IMG/VR virus record: IMGVR_UViG_3300037010_001390
Coordinates: 1-34,146 of that record
Length of the DNA: 34,146 nt
DNA from: a virus
Reading direction: 5' to 3' (one strand)
Shown: positions 12,998 to 29,160 of the stretch, piece after piece
Position numbering within the stretch: position 1 is the stretch's first letter
How the letters are laid out: every line of letters starts with the position of its first letter
Notes under the pieces: model-generated
The model's input: only the letters and a program-made list of their open reading frames with translations
Told to the model about the DNA's origin: nothing
The model's database searches: none
Position numbers and translations under genes: made by a program

Positions 12998-14692
12998 ATG
13001 ACAATAAGCCATATTACACCAGCACCAAATGCGCCAAACAGGATTACAGGTGTTTCTACATTTAACGCTGACATGTCTGCATTTTTGTTATGGATGCAGA
13101 ATAATTCAGTTGAAATAAATAATTTTATTGATTTGCTTAATGCTGGTGATACGTCAACAGCATTAGCCGGGCGACTGGCATCTGCGGCTACTGGTGATGG
13201 CGCAAATATGGTCGCAGTGCCACCACCAATGACTGATGCTGTTCCAAGAACAGTATATCTAAATCTCCTTCACTGCAAAAACCTAAATAATTGGTGTGAC
13301 GGGAATGGCGCCGACGAAACAGTGCAAATTGCAAAAGCATTTGCAGCCTGCAATGCGGCTGGGGTTCAGGTGCTTGAAGGCAAGACTGATGCAAATTATG
13401 TCTGGACCGGTGTGCAAACGCTGGCTGACCGGCTTAGTATTGCTGGAAATGGCTGCACTTTTACACCGGTAAATGATGGATTCAAAACAATTGGCGGCGC
13501 CAATGACATCGGCAAAACATTTTACCGTGATTTCGCAATGCTGGGTGCCAGCAGCGCGGCCAATAGTGGGATTGCGATTGCACAAAACACGACGCTTGCG
13601 CGCACGCGCGGGATTGAGTTCCGCAATGTGCTGGTTGACAGATTTCTAAATGCAATAACTGCGCGCAGCATGTGGGACGGTGTGATTGACGGGTGCCACA
13701 TCTACCGGAGCAAGTTCGGAGTTTCATTTGTCGGCCAGTGCGTCAGCAATGTCATCCGAAATTCCCATATCCTAAGCACAGTCGCAACGCAAGGGGATGG
13801 GTCCGTAGGTGTGTATGTTGATCAATACACTTATGCCGATGCAACGGCTCGCAGACCGGAAGCAATACTGATCGATGGTGAAACTCGTGTATATGGCTTT
13901 GATACCAATGCGTGGGTTAATCGCTGCCTAAAATTTTCTGCTATTAACTCTGATTTTGATGCGGCGCTGAAGTATGGTATCCGCGCAACAACTGTTGATT
14001 CCAAAATTGTAATTGCAAACAATTACGTTGCATGCATCGGGGGGGCGGTGCCAGGATATGGTATCCACATCGATGATTTAGGGTCTGCAAATTCATCCGC
14101 GCTGCTTGTTGCAGATAATGATATATGGGGTGTCGGTACGATGCCATCGGGTAGCGTAGCGCTGTACGTCGGTACAAACCGCACCGGCAAAAAAGTTATC
14201 TCGCGTAATACTCTTGGAGCTGGCGTGCCATTTGACTATGGACTACAGCTTGCCACGGTCAGCAATGCGGATGTTGAATACAATACAATAAACGGTGTAA
14301 ATGGGTCATTACTTGCGCAAAATGGCGGAAGCAACAAATACACCCGCAATGACTTCAATGTGCCGATCCAGCGCAGCGGGACGCGAACAAAGGATGAGTT
14401 TGATCACAATAGCGGAACTGCCGTCACGTGCTTTCACGGCCTCGTCGTCTATCCGGCTACGGTCACAACAACAACCCTGTCAGATACTACTGACCTCGGC
14501 CTGAGTGCGGCAATTGTGACCGGTGCTCCTGCAAATCTGCTTAAATACTGTAAAGTAACGCAAGTCACTGGCGCAACGAGCATGGGATTTATCCGCGCCA
14601 GAGATAGCGGGGCAGGTGGCGTAATTATCGATCGGACTGTCGCGCTTGGTGGGGCTAGTGCAGATATATGGCTCGACATGGAGTCGTATTGA
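12998..14692 (+). CDS. tailspike / tail fibre with right-handed beta-helix
   Basis: This 564-residue protein is clearly more AT-rich than the rest of the window. Residues 1-65 look like a short adaptor (NAPNRITGVSTFNADMSAFLLWMQNNSVEINNFI). The body resembles pectate-lyase-fold spikes: a DGNGADETVQIAKAFAACNAAG entry motif, then repeated coils such as GIEFRNVLVDRFLNAI, DGVIDGCHIYRSKFGV, SNVIRNSHILST, KIVIANNYVACI and NADVEYNTINGV. The last 90 residues form a separate Thr/Val-rich domain, perhaps for trimerisation. Such proteins bind and often cleave surface polysaccharide. No catalytic triad can be named from sequence alone. GAGG precedes the ATG. A transferred receptor-binding gene is likely. 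Confidence 0.8.
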   Translation: MTISHITPAPNAPNRITGVSTFNADMSAFLLWMQNNSVEINNFIDLLNAGDTSTALAGRLASAATGDGANMVAVPPPMTDAVPRTVYLNLLHCKNLNNWCDGNGADETVQIAKAFAACNAAGVQVLEGKTDANYVWTGVQTLADRLSIAGNGCTFTPVNDGFKTIGGANDIGKTFYRDFAMLGASSAANSGIAIAQNTTLARTRGIEFRNVLVDRFLNAITARSMWDGVIDGCHIYRSKFGVSFVGQCVSNVIRNSHILSTVATQGDGSVGVYVDQYTYADATARRPEAILIDGETRVYGFDTNAWVNRCLKFSAINSDFDAALKYGIRATTVDSKIVIANNYVACIGGAVPGYGIHIDDLGSANSSALLVADNDIWGVGTMPSGSVALYVGTNRTGKKVISRNTLGAGVPFDYGLQLATVSNADVEYNTINGVNGSLLAQNGGSNKYTRNDFNVPIQRSGTRTKDEFDHNSGTAVTCFHGLVVYPATVTTTTLSDTTDLGLSAAIVTGAPANLLKYCKVTQVTGATSMGFIRARDSGAGGVIIDRTVALGGASADIWLDMESY

Positions 14693-17905: not shown

Positions 17906-18447
17906 GGTTGGCTCCGGTACAGCTCAGCGCCGGCGACGTCGCCGGGCTCGGTGGTCTGGGTCTGGATGCGATGGCCAAGCCAATCGGCATCATGGCGCAG
18001 CTCGATGGCCAAGCCGGCATGCGCGCTGACCAGGTCAGCAGCCTCGCCGACAGCTTGCTCGATGGCCATGGCGTAGCGCTCGTTCCAGCGGTAGCCGGTC
18101 AAGGCCATCTGGTGCACGCTGCGCAGCGCGCCGTGCAGGCGACGTGTGAGCAGGTCAGCCGGACCACACAAGCGCATCTGGACACTCGCGCCGAGACCGA
18201 TCTGCCAGGCCAGTTCAGCCAGGTCGCCCGGCACTTTGGCGCCATGCTCCAGGCAGTACACCGCGATGCGGGTAGTGCGCACTTGGCTGCGCATAGCCTC
18301 ATCGACCTCGGCCAGCGTGCGGGCCCGCTGGAGCCACTGCGGGCGTAGATCGGCAGCAGTGACGCCTAGCGGGTAGGGCGATGCAGCAGCTGCGCCCAGG
18401 CAAGCCTGGGCGGCGCTGCTGAGGGGGCTCAGCTGCCGGCGGGTCAT
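17902..18447 (-). CDS. unknown helical protein downstream of ParB-like gene
   Basis: The start at 18447 makes an ATGA overlap with the ParB-like stop; an upstream ATG at 18510 would lie inside that gene. The 181-residue product is mainly helical (AEVDEAMRSQVRTTRIAVYCLEHGAKVPGDLAELAWQIG; YRWNERYAMAIEQAVGEAADLVSAHAGLAIELRHDADWLGHRI). No catalytic motif is visible. Tight coupling to the ParB-like gene suggests a partner or accessory role. The family is not recognised. Confidence 0.65.
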   Translation of the reverse strand: MTRRQLSPLSSAAQACLGAAAASPYPLGVTAADLRPQWLQRARTLAEVDEAMRSQVRTTRIAVYCLEHGAKVPGDLAELAWQIGLGASVQMRLCGPADLLTRRLHGALRSVHQMALTGYRWNERYAMAIEQAVGEAADLVSAHAGLAIELRHDADWLGHRIQTQTTEPGDVAGAELYRSQP

Positions 18448-20216
18448 TTCACCAGCCCCGCGACAAAATCGTTGAGGCTGCCACCGGCATCTATCTCGGC
18501 CCGGAGCCACTTCGGCATCAAGCCCTTGCCGCTCCAGGCCTCACCGGTGTCCGGATGTCGGTACGCGACAGGGCGAGACTGGCTTCCGGCCGTGGCCTGC
18601 GGCCAGCGTAGTTCGATCTGCTGCACGACTTCTTCCAAGTGCCCGCCGTCATCAGTCCAGAGCAAAGCTTGGCTGATGGCGCAAGCCACAGCGATGCGGC
18701 CGAGTTCGTCGGGAGATAGGTCTGCCAGCTGCTCGATGATGTCTTGGCACACCAAGACACCGCCAGTGGTGTCCAGGCCGATGAGTTCCTGGGTACTGCG
18801 GCGCGATGTGCAAGCCAGCGCAGCGCAGACCCAGACCAGATCAACCGTTTCACGGCCATCTCGGCTGCGCAGCACTCTGTGCGCCAGGCGGTCCAGGATG
18901 GCGTTCGTTGCAACGGCTGGATCATCGCCACTGTCGATTTCCCCCGCCCCCCCGTCGTGTTCCTGCGCGTCAGTTTTCTTGCCATCGATGACTGTGACAG
19001 GGCCACTGGATTCCAGACTGTGGTCCCGCGCAAGCGCGGGGTTATCCAGTTCGACACTTCCGGCCTTACGGCCGGATTCAGCCAGGGGTTCGACGTGGGT
19101 TCGGTAAAGTGAAACGAGTTTGTCCGCTTGATCCGTTGAAATCATTTGAATGATCTGCGGGGGCATGAACGGATGCTTGGTATTGTTGATAAGCACATAA
19201 GTCAGCAAATGCTCGTATTCGCTGGCGTCTGCGGACGATGCCATAAGCCGATCGCGCAGCACGTTGTACGAAAGCATGCCGGGCCGGTTGTTCCAGGTGC
19301 GCCAATACCCAGTAGCATCGTTTTCTGATTCAAATTCAAGAATGTCAAACCCTTGGGCGGCATGCTCTCCAAGTTTCCCTCTGAAATGGGCCAGGCGTTT
19401 TTGCTTGAAGCAGTCGATGTTCGTGCAGACGTCTGGATTGCCTCCGGTGTCGGTCGGGTCGTTGCCGCTGCGATACCTGCATGAAAAGCAGTCTCCAGCC
19501 GACTCCAGCAAGGTGGCATCTTTCATATCCCAGCCGGCGTGGCGCTTGAGGTCGGTGGCGTAGTCGGCAGCAATGCGCTGCTGCGCAATGCGGAAGCTCA
19601 CGCCCTGCAAGTCAGCTGCGGCCTTGATCTGCAGCTTGGGGCTGGCGATGCGGGTGATGAGCAGGGCCACTTCAGCATCAAGCTTGCCGCTGCGTTGCAT
19701 GGACTTGACTTCAGGGGTCAGCTCGGCAGCCATGCGCATGCGGCCGTAGACGTAGCTGCGCGTCTTGCCGGTGCGGGCCATGATCTGCTCGGCGGTCATG
19801 CCGTGCTGCTGCTTGAGGTAGAGCATCGCAGCACCTTCGTCCACGGCTGCGACGCCTTCGCGCTCCAGGTTCTCGTGGATTTGAGCCTCAACGACTTCGG
19901 TCTCAGTCATCGCCTTGACCATGCAAGGGATGGTGTCCAGCCCTGCGCGTTTGGCGGCCATCCAGCGGCGGTGGCCGAACACGATTTCATAATCTGGTGC
20001 GGTGTTTACACCAATTTCATCATCTTCCGCATATCTGGCGATATTGATTTGCAGCAGGGGCCGCACCAGGATGGGTTCCATGATGCCCTGGCTCAGGATG
20101 CTGTTGGTCAGCTCGTCAAGCGACTCGTCGCTGCAGGACTGGTGGTCGGGTGAGCGCGGGTTGTACCGCGATGGCGCCAGGCGCTGCGGGTGGATGTAGG
20201 TGATGGTGGTCGTCAT
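18444..20216 (-). CDS. large ParB-like protein (ParB/RepB/Spo0J family)
   Basis: This 590-residue protein has the ParB N-terminal domain: NPRSPDHQSCSDESLDELTNSILSQG, then IMEPILVRP, the arginine box FGHRRWMAAKRAG (80-92) and ENLEREGVAAVDEGAAM. The HTH follows at about 138-165 (MTAEQIMARTGKTRSYVYGRM). Four cysteines at 243, 246, 264 and 269 (CFSC and CTNIDC) probably bind zinc. The long C-terminal half, about 320 residues, is unlike short chromosomal ParB and recalls the large ParB proteins of PRTRC-type plasmid loci (from memory of the family). No ParA gene is present. It may act in DNA binding, transcription control or nuclease activity rather than partition. It overlaps both neighbours by four bases. 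Confidence 0.85.
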   Translation of the reverse strand: MTTTITYIHPQRLAPSRYNPRSPDHQSCSDESLDELTNSILSQGIMEPILVRPLLQINIARYAEDDEIGVNTAPDYEIVFGHRRWMAAKRAGLDTIPCMVKAMTETEVVEAQIHENLEREGVAAVDEGAAMLYLKQQHGMTAEQIMARTGKTRSYVYGRMRMAAELTPEVKSMQRSGKLDAEVALLITRIASPKLQIKAAADLQGVSFRIAQQRIAADYATDLKRHAGWDMKDATLLESAGDCFSCRYRSGNDPTDTGGNPDVCTNIDCFKQKRLAHFRGKLGEHAAQGFDILEFESENDATGYWRTWNNRPGMLSYNVLRDRLMASSADASEYEHLLTYVLINNTKHPFMPPQIIQMISTDQADKLVSLYRTHVEPLAESGRKAGSVELDNPALARDHSLESSGPVTVIDGKKTDAQEHDGGAGEIDSGDDPAVATNAILDRLAHRVLRSRDGRETVDLVWVCAALACTSRRSTQELIGLDTTGGVLVCQDIIEQLADLSPDELGRIAVACAISQALLWTDDGGHLEEVVQQIELRWPQATAGSQSRPVAYRHPDTGEAWSGKGLMPKWLRAEIDAGGSLNDFVAGLVK

Positions 20217-25926: not shown

Positions 25927-26280
25927 ATGCACAAAGGTCACACCTACAGCGAGGCATACCGGCACGAATGCGAAGTGGCATACGTGTGCGACCTCCCGAC
26001 TGTGGATCAAAGGCGGGACTACCTGGACTACTGCGACCGCAAGCGCAAACCAGAGCAGGCCGCGCGCCTGCGAAGTGATGTGCGAACGCTCTTCCTGGCG
26101 CGCAGGCAAGGCGGGGGGGCCCCATTTCCCCAGCAGTCAGCGGCAGGCGATGCGCCATCGGTAGGCGTCAACCGCGCAGTGAACGATGGGTCAGGGCCGG
26201 GTTTTGGGTCCTTCCTGGGAACCGCCCATGAGGGTAATTCGAACCCCGATCGGCGTGTAGACAGTGGGGGTACGGCATAG
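25927..26280 (+). CDS. small early protein of unknown function (HECEV/RRDYL type)
   Basis: I prefer the ATG at 25927 (AGGG seven bases upstream) to 25912. The 117-residue product opens with a compact helical domain, HTYSEAYRHECEVAYVCDLPTVDQRRDYLDYCDRKRKPEQAARLRSDV. This type is often found just before phage replication genes; I recall it only as a domain of unknown function. The rest is Gly/Pro-rich and probably disordered. Its TAG shares a G with the GTG of the primase-helicase (26280), so the two are coupled. Confidence 0.65.
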   Translation: MHKGHTYSEAYRHECEVAYVCDLPTVDQRRDYLDYCDRKRKPEQAARLRSDVRTLFLARRQGGGAPFPQQSAAGDAPSVGVNRAVNDGSGPGFGSFLGTAHEGNSNPDRRVDSGGTA

Positions 26281-28745
26281 TGAACTGGGTCAACTATGAC
26301 GACGTCCTCGCCCAGCTGCGCAGCGTGGGCCTGCTGCTCGACACCATCGAAAGCGATGCCATCGGCACACGCAAGCGCTGCCGCATCGAGGGCGACGCTG
26401 AGAAGCGCGGCTGGTACCACCTGCACGAGCTGCGCACCGACTCCGGCGACACCATGCTGGTCGGCAGCTTCGGTGTCTGGCACGGCGCCGACCCCGGCAC
26501 GCAGAAGATCTCCCTGCGCGGGCAGACGCTCACGCGCGAGCAGCAGCAGGCGCTGCGCGACCGCATCCACGCCGACCAGCAGCGCGATGCCGCCAGGCGT
26601 AAAGCTGAAGGCGAGCGGGCTGCGCGGCGCGCTGCCACCATGTGGCAACGGCTGTCCGAGTCCGGTACCTGCGACTACCTGCCGCGCAAGCAGGTCCAGC
26701 CCTTTGGCGTGCGCTTCAGCGAGCGTGGCGCCATGGCCATCCCGCTGCTCGACGTGCACGGTACCGTCCACGGCCTGCAGCTCATCTACCCCAGCACGCA
26801 CGAAAAAGCCAAGCGCCTCGGCCGCGACAAAGATTTCTGGCCGACCGGCCTGGTCAAGCAGGGCCACTTCTTCCTGCTCGGTAGCCCAGCCGCCGCGCGA
26901 GTGCTGCTGCTGGCCGAGGGCTACGCCACCGCCGCGAGCCTGCACATGGCTACCGGCCTGCCGGCAGCAGTCGCCTTCGACGCTGGCAACCTGATGCACG
27001 TCGCCAAGGCGCTGGCCGCCAGGTACCGTGGCCTGAAGATTCTGGTCTGCGCTGACGACGACTACCTGGTCAAGTGCCGCATCTGTCGCAAGCTCACCAG
27101 CACGGCCGGCGAGCCATGCCAGCATTGCGGCGAGGAACACCCCTGCGGCAATGCTGGCGCGATAGGTGCAGATGCTGCCGCGTTGGCAACAGATGGTGCG
27201 TGGTTTTCACCATGGTTTACTGCTGAGCGGCCGACCGACAAGAAAGGCCCGACCGACTTCAACGACCTGCACGCGCTGGAGGGCCTGCACGTCGTGCGCG
27301 CCCAGGTCGAGGCCCGCCTCTCGGCACTGGGTTGGCAAGCAGCCGGCGGCACGCCGGCGCCCAGCACACCACCGCCGGGGGAGGGGGATATCGGCGGTGC
27401 CGATGCTGACCTCACCGTCATCACCAGCATCGATGAATTCCAGCGTCGCTTCTCGCTCGTCTATGAGATGACCGAGACCGTCTTCGACGCGCAGGAACAC
27501 AAACTTGTACCGATCAGCAGCATGCGCAACCTCGGGTCATCGCGGCAGCTGCACCGGCACTGGATGGAATCGACCGACAAGCGCCTCGTGCGCGTCGGCG
27601 AGGTCGGGTTTGATCCGACTGAGCGCGACCCGAAGGTCAAGTGCAACCTGTGGGGCGGCTGGCCGACCACACCGCGCGCTGGCCAGTGCGGCCGCATCCT
27701 GGAGCTGGGCGAGTACCTGTGCAGCAACGATGCGCGCGGCGCTGAGCTGTGGGAATGGATGCTCAAGTGGATCGCGCTGCCGATCCAGCGGCCCGGCACC
27801 AAGATGAAAACCGCGCTCGTCCTGCACGGCCCGCAAGGGACGGGGAAGAACCTGTTCTTCGAGACCGTGATGCGCGTCTACGGCGAGTACGCCCGGGTGA
27901 TCGATCAAGAAGCGCTCGAAGACAAGTTCAACGACACCTTCAGCCGCAAGTTGTTCCTGGTTGCCGACGAAGTGGTTGCCCGGCAAGAGCTGTTCCACAC
28001 CAAGAACAAGCTCAAGGGCTTCGTCACTGGCACCGAGATCCGTATCAATCCGAAGAACGTCGGCGCCTACTTTGAGAAGAACCACCTCAATCTGGTGTTC
28101 CTCAGCAACGAGCCGCAGCCGATGGTGCTGGAGCGCGACGATCGACGCTACTGCATCGTCTGGACGCCTCCCAAGTTGGAGCCTGAGTTCTATAACGAGG
28201 TGCTGGCCGAGATCGATGACGGCGGCGTCGAGGCGCTGCACGACTACCTGCTGCACCTCGATCTCGGCGACTTTGGCCCGGCCTCGCAGCCGCCGATGAC
28301 GCAAGCCAAGCGCGACCTGATTGAGCTCAGCCTGGACAGCTCCGAGCGCTTCTACAACGAGTGGATCGGCCGCGAGCTGCCGCTGCCCGTCGGCCCGGTG
28401 CGCACCGAAGACCTCTATGACGCCTACCGCCATTGGTGCGGCCGCCAAGGTGTGGCCAAGCCAGCGCAGCAAAGCACCCTGATTGGAGCGCTGTCCAAGC
28501 GACCAGGCGTGCACAAAGCGCGTCCACGGCACTACAAGCAGCGATCCCGCACGGTCACCACACAAAGCAATGTGATGTGGCCAGCAGGTGCCGAGCGTGA
28601 GATGCACATGGATCAGCTGTCCGATGCGCTGGCCATCTTCGGCGAGTCCGTCGCCCAGTGGAAAGAGCCCGCGAAAAAGGGCCTTGGCGACACCATCACT
28701 GACCCGCGTGACCAGGCAGAAGGGATCAACGATGTGCCGTTCTGA
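26280..28745 (+). CDS. primase-helicase (Toprim plus SF3/D5-type helicase)
   Basis: This 821-residue protein starts at GTG. Residues 1-190 are a primase-type N-terminal region (GDAEKRGWYHLHEL; GVRFSERGAMAIPLLDVHG). The Toprim domain follows: LLLAEGYATAASL (about 209-221), VCADDD (about 256-261), GPTDFNDLHALEG (about 320). Four Cys (266, 269, 280, 283, with His287/Cys289) form a zinc-ribbon-like insert between the DDD and NAGAIGADAA motifs. The helicase half has Walker A GPQGTGKN (about 517-524), Walker B LFLVADEV, and LVFLSNEPQPM with an arginine-finger-like DDRRYCI. It would start and unwind at the phage origin, as in P4-like replication. It is the only replication enzyme seen, so polymerase must come from the host. 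Confidence 0.9.
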   Translation: MNWVNYDDVLAQLRSVGLLLDTIESDAIGTRKRCRIEGDAEKRGWYHLHELRTDSGDTMLVGSFGVWHGADPGTQKISLRGQTLTREQQQALRDRIHADQQRDAARRKAEGERAARRAATMWQRLSESGTCDYLPRKQVQPFGVRFSERGAMAIPLLDVHGTVHGLQLIYPSTHEKAKRLGRDKDFWPTGLVKQGHFFLLGSPAAARVLLLAEGYATAASLHMATGLPAAVAFDAGNLMHVAKALAARYRGLKILVCADDDYLVKCRICRKLTSTAGEPCQHCGEEHPCGNAGAIGADAAALATDGAWFSPWFTAERPTDKKGPTDFNDLHALEGLHVVRAQVEARLSALGWQAAGGTPAPSTPPPGEGDIGGADADLTVITSIDEFQRRFSLVYEMTETVFDAQEHKLVPISSMRNLGSSRQLHRHWMESTDKRLVRVGEVGFDPTERDPKVKCNLWGGWPTTPRAGQCGRILELGEYLCSNDARGAELWEWMLKWIALPIQRPGTKMKTALVLHGPQGTGKNLFFETVMRVYGEYARVIDQEALEDKFNDTFSRKLFLVADEVVARQELFHTKNKLKGFVTGTEIRINPKNVGAYFEKNHLNLVFLSNEPQPMVLERDDRRYCIVWTPPKLEPEFYNEVLAEIDDGGVEALHDYLLHLDLGDFGPASQPPMTQAKRDLIELSLDSSERFYNEWIGRELPLPVGPVRTEDLYDAYRHWCGRQGVAKPAQQSTLIGALSKRPGVHKARPRHYKQRSRTVTTQSNVMWPAGAEREMHMDQLSDALAIFGESVAQWKEPAKKGLGDTITDPRDQAEGINDVPF

Positions 28746-28752
28746 CACCCTC

Positions 28753-29160
28753 ATGACCATGAAAAAGCGCCTGCACAAGCGCCTGCACAAGCGCCTGCAC
28801 AGCCCCTGCAAAGTGGCTGCACAAGTGCCTGCACAAGCGCCTGCACAAGCGGTCCAGACAGGTATCGGTCAGCCGCAACGCGTGGTCATGCCCTCTGATT
28901 TCAAGGTCTGTGCAGGCGTCTGTGCAGGCGCTTGTGCAGGGTCTGTGCAGGCGCTTAGGATGCCTGCACGCATCGGTAAGTGCTTGTCAGGACTGAGTTT
29001 TTCTGCCTTGTGCAGCCTGTGCGGCCGCCTCGTGCATGCGTGTGAGCGGGCGCGGGCATGCGCAAGCGCAGGCGGGCAGGCGGGCGGGCGCACGCTCACA
29101 CACGTGCGCGCGATTCCCCCCTACGTACGCCTGAAAAAAGCATGTGGAGTAGCAGTATGA
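28753..29160 (+). CDS. low-complexity frame across repeat block, doubtful
   Basis: A 135-codon frame fills the gap between the helicase and the next gene, and its TGA overlaps the next ATG (ATGA at 29157), as for real genes here. The peptide is made mostly of repeat translation (KRLHKRLHKRLH, AQVPAQAPAQA, CAGVCAGACAG) and Cys/Ala/Gly-rich sequence. It may be a chance frame through a non-coding site. I keep it because of the exact fit at both ends. Confidence 0.25.
   Translation: MTMKKRLHKRLHKRLHSPCKVAAQVPAQAPAQAVQTGIGQPQRVVMPSDFKVCAGVCAGACAGSVQALRMPARIGKCLSGLSFSALCSLCGRLVHACERARACASAGGQAGGRTLTHVRAIPPYVRLKKACGVAV
28767..28952 (+). repeat. iterated 12-bp direct and inverted repeats; candidate origin or packaging site
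   Basis: GCGCCTGCACAA-type units follow one another at 28767, 28779, 28791, 28802, 28813, 28825 and 28837, with two 11-bp units and the rest 12 bp. After about 57 bases, inverted units (GTCTGTGCAGGC type) follow at 28906, 28918, 28930 and 28941. The block lies between the replication protein and the terminase genes. Iterated sites in this spot suggest an origin bound by the primase-helicase or a cosB-like terminase site. Further GC-rich inverted repeats (for example GTGTGAGCG at 29040-29048 with CGCTCACAC at 29093-29101) fill the rest of the gap up to 29156. Confidence 0.8.

Follow-up and report, generated by a model that had tools for sequence, protein, structure and literature searches.

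Facing arrays of short repeats after a phage primase-helicase gene as a probable replication origin

Several described elements have sites made of short repeats located after the gene for a primase or helicase. The pri-rep-ori segment of the Escherichia coli PICI EcCICFT073, which carries two sets of iterons, supports the replication of a plasmid (PMC6092414). Cch2 uses its C-terminal domain to bind iterons located after its own gene, and the Rep protein of SaPIs appears to occupy its origin as a pair of hexamers (PMC7581432). The P4 record annotates crr as a cis region that replication needs; it is found 46 bp downstream of the alpha stop, and its type 1 repeats, which occur in either orientation, are spaced by 9 and 43 bp. 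The annotated origin of replication of P4 is at another site, apart from crr. Here we describe a repeat block in a virus contig that has the position and much of the layout of these sites.

The window analyzed is the whole contig of 34,146 bases (IMGVR_UViG_3300037010_001390), which is without terminal repeats, and the block is flanked by a primase-helicase gene, which ends at 28745, and a minor tail gene, which begins at 29157. The primase-helicase (26280-28745, plus strand; 821 amino acids) combines a Toprim primase, a DUF5906/VapE-type SF3 helicase, and a C-terminal winged helix, and matches Pfam DUF5906 (E=2.6e-20), Toprim_3, and PHROG 2249, DNA primase (E=3e-143). An AlphaFold model of residues 456 to 821 (pLDDT 89) has an AAA+ core followed by the winged helix at approximately residues 705 to 770, and the secondary structure of the model places this domain at about codons 706 to 769 (28394-28586, plus strand) and its recognition helix at residues 731 to 739. 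Foldseek matches of the model (entries 7ola, 7om0, and 7pds) include NrS-1 PrimPol, the ASFV primase-polymerase, and the SaPI5 primase-helicase, and one of the matched entries contains double-stranded DNA. These are features of SF3 or D5-type initiator helicases, which are often fused to a primase, and the protein is presumed to be the initiator that binds the repeats. The genes downstream of the block code for the minor tail protein (PHROG 1924), TerS (PHROG 57), and a GpA-type TerL. We note two other genes in the window: an early-region gene for a ParB-like protein (18447-20216, minus strand; ParB_N and HTH_ParB) that ends in an H-NS C-terminal DNA-binding domain, an unusual combination, and a tailspike-like gene (12998-14692), likely an acquired receptor-binding module, whose GC content is about 47% against 64% for the genome.

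The block opens with seven inverted words, GCCTGCACA (the reverse of TGTGCAGGC), in an array on the minus strand (28769-28847) with 11- to 12-bp spacing; they start at 28769, 28781, 28793, 28804, 28815, 28827, and 28839, the copy at 28804 being degenerate (CCCTGCAAA). A word-free spacer (28848-28908) separates these from four facing TGTGCAGGC words on the plus strand (28909-28952; starts at 28909, 28921, 28933, and 28944), again spaced by 11 to 12 bp. Then come a lone inverted word, GCCTGCACG (28962-28970, minus strand), found at the same place in L006, L018, L019, and other related loci, and a direct pair, TGTGCAGCC and TGTGCGGCC, 9 bp apart (29009-29026, plus strand; starts at 29009 and 29018), which corresponds to the inner left arm of relatives. 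The stretch up to the tail gene (29027-29156) is a GC-rich center and a candidate opening site, with alternating purine/pyrimidine tracts (one of 16 bp at 29097-29112), an imperfect GC-rich inverted repeat (29031-29053 and 29088-29110, 83% complementary), and a short run of A residues ahead of the tail gene.

An earlier note on this DNA had described direct and inverted 12-bp repeats followed by further GC-rich inverted repeats; both are present, with seven copies and four opposite copies across a gap of about 60 bp, and the lone inverted word (28962) and the direct pair (29009 and 29018), which it missed, are placed as in relatives. Its suggestion that the low-complexity reading frame through the block fits a noncoding site also holds: the 190-amino-acid frame (28588-29160, plus strand) was judged not to be a gene and has no sign of being one, and the matching frame of Stenotrophomonas phage S1 is that phage's own repeat block. 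In the S1 record (NC_011589; locus L013), that frame (2454-2804) is annotated as the hypothetical protein "gp2" and is probably not a gene.

The repeat block is real and far above chance. The exact 9-mer TGTGCAGGC is present in eight copies in the block and once in the remaining 33.7 kb, the best 8-mer has 15 non-overlapping copies whereas 500 dinucleotide shuffles gave no more than 8, and the block is the top-scoring 500-bp window of the whole record. No second cluster of the word was found in the 34,146-base window, and an Rfam search of the window gave no match.

Searches with the helicase as the query recovered relatives in viral and bacterial contigs and in phage S1, and then 80 more, from which 64 loci remained as the discovery set after dereplication; the control was a set of 511 windows, and a held-out set comprised 47 new helicases from three further scans. 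Of the 64 discovery loci, 60 have at least 8 words immediately past the helicase stop, versus 27 of the 511 control windows; for at least 10 words the counts are 57 and 1, respectively. A block occupies this position in 46 of the 47 held-out loci as well. These are mismatch word counts, used in place of an automatic EM motif fit that drifted to CG alternation in GC-rich blocks. The facing-repeat arrangement recurs in about a hundred related phages. The modal arm has six words (6+6), the arms face each other across a center with a median length of 82 bp, and word spacing peaks at 9 and 12 bp and then at 31 to 33 and 43 bp. The words themselves differ by lineage among the relatives and include TGTGCGGCA, TGTGCGGG, TGTGAAGGG, TGTTACTCA, ATGGAACA, and TATACCGG, as well as GGTTGCAGGC in L006. 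In L027 the helicase frame is longer and seems to extend through the left arm of the block.

The centers are mostly GC-rich. Alternating purine/pyrimidine runs of at least 12 bp are present in 40 of 50 canonical centers and in 3% of other windows, and the mean alternating run in the 50 centers is 16.4 versus 6.6 when shuffled. Tracts of the CGCGTGCG type lie between the arms at levels far above chance, for example in L020, L051, and L013, and a few centers, such as that of L020, have AT-rich stretches. It is possible that the alternating tract is a Z-DNA-prone opening site.

The window conforms to the general plan, with two iteron sets directly 3' of the helicase gene, but in a rearranged form. 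The four-word array (28909-28952), which is the outer left arm of relatives, together with the lone word and the inner pair, corresponds to the left arm in L005, L006, and L018; the center matches the one in L005. Unlike in nearly all relatives, the seven inverted words (28765-28850) precede this left arm, and the right arm that lies between the center and the tail gene in L005 and L018 is missing. This order has no other clear case in the set of 64 loci; it could reflect a rearrangement that left the origin working, or misassembly of identical repeats.

The relatives also separate the two genes that the block could serve. The terminase genes lie 6.8 kb from the helicase gene in Marinobacter phage PS3 and 2.7 kb from it in Pseudomonas phage Turba, PG1 has a P27-family TerS, and H4907 and Mcat1 are further cases; in all five the block follows the helicase, with a score reached by none of 100 shuffles. 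In Haddon and LPPA36 it lies after one small frame past the helicase. No block was found upstream of TerS in Turba, H4907, PG1, Haddon, Mcat1, or F10, the last of which has related tail and terminase genes and an initiator/DnaC/DnaB-type replication module, and the score upstream of TerS in PS3 is slightly elevated (reached by 3 of 100 shuffles). Across 60 loci, word sharing follows the identity of the helicase C terminus (partial rank r of 0.37; Mantel p of 0.0005), a measure inflated by the relatedness of the loci, and similarity of the helicase core (0.009) or of TerS (-0.15) adds nothing.

Of the 30 alignment columns that best track the word, 17 are in the C-terminal domain, against a background of 95 of 512 (Fisher p of 1.5e-6), and wing residue 750 (about 28527-28529 in the window) ranks first. 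Arginine at this residue goes with G at word position 4, with counts of 52/0/1/9 in the discovery table, a rule that came from a scan of 512 columns and has a p of 0.06 in a tree-based sign test; the held-out table is 28/3/7/8 (Fisher p of 0.002), and the exceptions among held-out loci include an Asp/Glu subgroup. P4, Turba, PG1, and others were left out of this test, as their C-terminal domains are not reliably alignable. We regard the Arg750-G4 association as a tendency with exceptions and as a lead on specificity rather than a proven code; the sequence covariation is in line with recognition of the iteron word by the C-terminal domain.

Sequence comparison establishes that the block keeps its place behind the helicase stop codon, that its words keep their spacing and covary with the winged helix, and that it is independent of the terminase; these results argue that the block is very probably the phage replication origin, of the kind used by a self-loading SF3 helicase, or a cis site licensing replication. 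We include the second wording, rather than a start point alone, because in P4 crr is needed and the origin is separate. The earlier note had left the choice between an origin and a terminase site, or both, and the origin is the part that has gained support, since the block follows the helicase across terminase types and its word covaries with that protein. From the homology of the helicase type and the similarity of layout, we infer that the primase-helicase would use its C-terminal winged helix to grip the 9-bp words and that one ring would load on each arm, the approximately six words per arm being equal to the number of subunits in an SF3 helicase ring. The center would then be opened between the rings, which would depart in opposite directions as the Toprim part primes, and synthesis would presumably start at the block. 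The GC-skew check that had been proposed was uninformative as evidence for an origin, as cumulative skew has no sharp turn at the block.

Of the other explanations, the strongest is a composite one, in which the repeats (28769-29026) are the origin and the GC-rich/A-run stretch before the late genes (29027-29156) holds cosN. This stretch occupies the expected place of a lambda-type cos, the tail gene and terS (29987/29990) leave no space for cos between them, and L005 and L016 have a similar stretch although the flanking word arms move. However, alternating tracts of the same kind are present in the centers of phages with their terminase genes elsewhere, and the close relatives are without any mapped ends; we consider this explanation unlikely, though it merits attention. 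VarioGold, which has mapped cos ends, was considered as a carrier of this helicase, but its homolog is distant and no recognizable block was found after it, such that it decides nothing.

It is also conceivable that the block resembles crr: the helicase would bind it and replication would depend on it, but would actually start elsewhere. P4 has crr after alpha and a separate ori, with the same repeats in both. We consider this improbable, given that no second word cluster is present in the window and that PICI and SaPI origins function as single sites after rep (PMC6092414).

A more remote explanation is that TerS binds the repeats, which would then be a cosB or pac site in front of the late operon. 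Phages with GpA-type terminases are lambda-type cos packagers with cos upstream of terS, and the terminase genes do follow the block in the window and in many relatives. The block nevertheless remains at the helicase when the terminase lies 2 to 7 kb away or is of another type, TerS similarity does not explain word sharing, and the GpA-type relative RcDormio, whose cluster has mapped 11-base 5' cos ends, has these ends 2.1 kb upstream of terS. A site tied to TerS, as expected of a lambda-type cosB, is thus not what is seen, and we reject this role for the repeats as highly improbable; that half of the earlier proposal is not borne out. We note that the joined record ends of RcDormio (L104) carry a repeated word, CCCGGTCG, in 10 copies (1 of 100 shuffles as high), which is perhaps its own cosB. 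Finally, a low-complexity or coding repeat without function, as the open frame spanning the block might suggest, is in practice refuted by the conservation of position, spacing, and orientation while the word changes.

Returning to the block as an origin, its scale, the stereotyped 6+6 layout, the alternating purine/pyrimidine center, and the covariation of the word with a wing residue are new here. More tentatively, and leaning slightly against rather than for it, we propose that these phages may share a large and undescribed class of origin, with 6+6 words each taken by one subunit of two opposing SF3 rings, a Z-DNA-prone tract replacing the AT-rich melting site, and a word that diversifies with the winged helix (Arg750/G4) to give private lineage origins. 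A primase-helicase with an adjoining iteron block is common in lambda-like temperate phages, such that satellites and helper-type phages would share one replication machinery. The word varies while its spacing stays constant, a natural experiment in how an initiator and its origin evolve together; the 6+6 layout makes a double-hexamer loading model directly testable, and origins in many unannotated prophages should be findable just past the helicase stop codon.

Among the known systems, the putative SCCmec Cch2 origin likewise has iterons after the helicase gene that are bound by a C-terminal domain, but these are only three 5-nucleotide iterons and the primase-polymerase is separate. Stenotrophomonas phage S1, the nearest cultured phage, has a homologous helicase (51%) and TerL (58%) and a canonical block of TGTGCGGG words; unlike the window it has the canonical arm order, and its block is not recognized as an origin in the record. 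P4 shares the Toprim-type primase fused to a helicase, a site directly after the gene, and repeats in both orientations at spacings of 9 and 43 bp, but it has a duplicated 120-bp crr, a separate ori, and the word GGTGAACA, in contrast to the single cluster of TGTGCAGGC here, and its C-terminal domain is not reliably alignable with that of the phage helicase. The SaPI and PICI pri-rep-ori segments (SaPIbov1, SaPI5, and EcCICFT073) differ in that the phages described here are self-sufficient and tailed, with GpA-type terminases and a Toprim primase, in that the helicase families are related only distantly, and in that their centers are AT-rich melting sites, whereas those here are mostly GC-rich and alternating. 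They nonetheless share the plan of a primase-helicase gene followed by two sets of short iterons flanking a center, together with a C-terminal DNA-binding domain and a helicase whose model resembles the SaPI5 primase-helicase.
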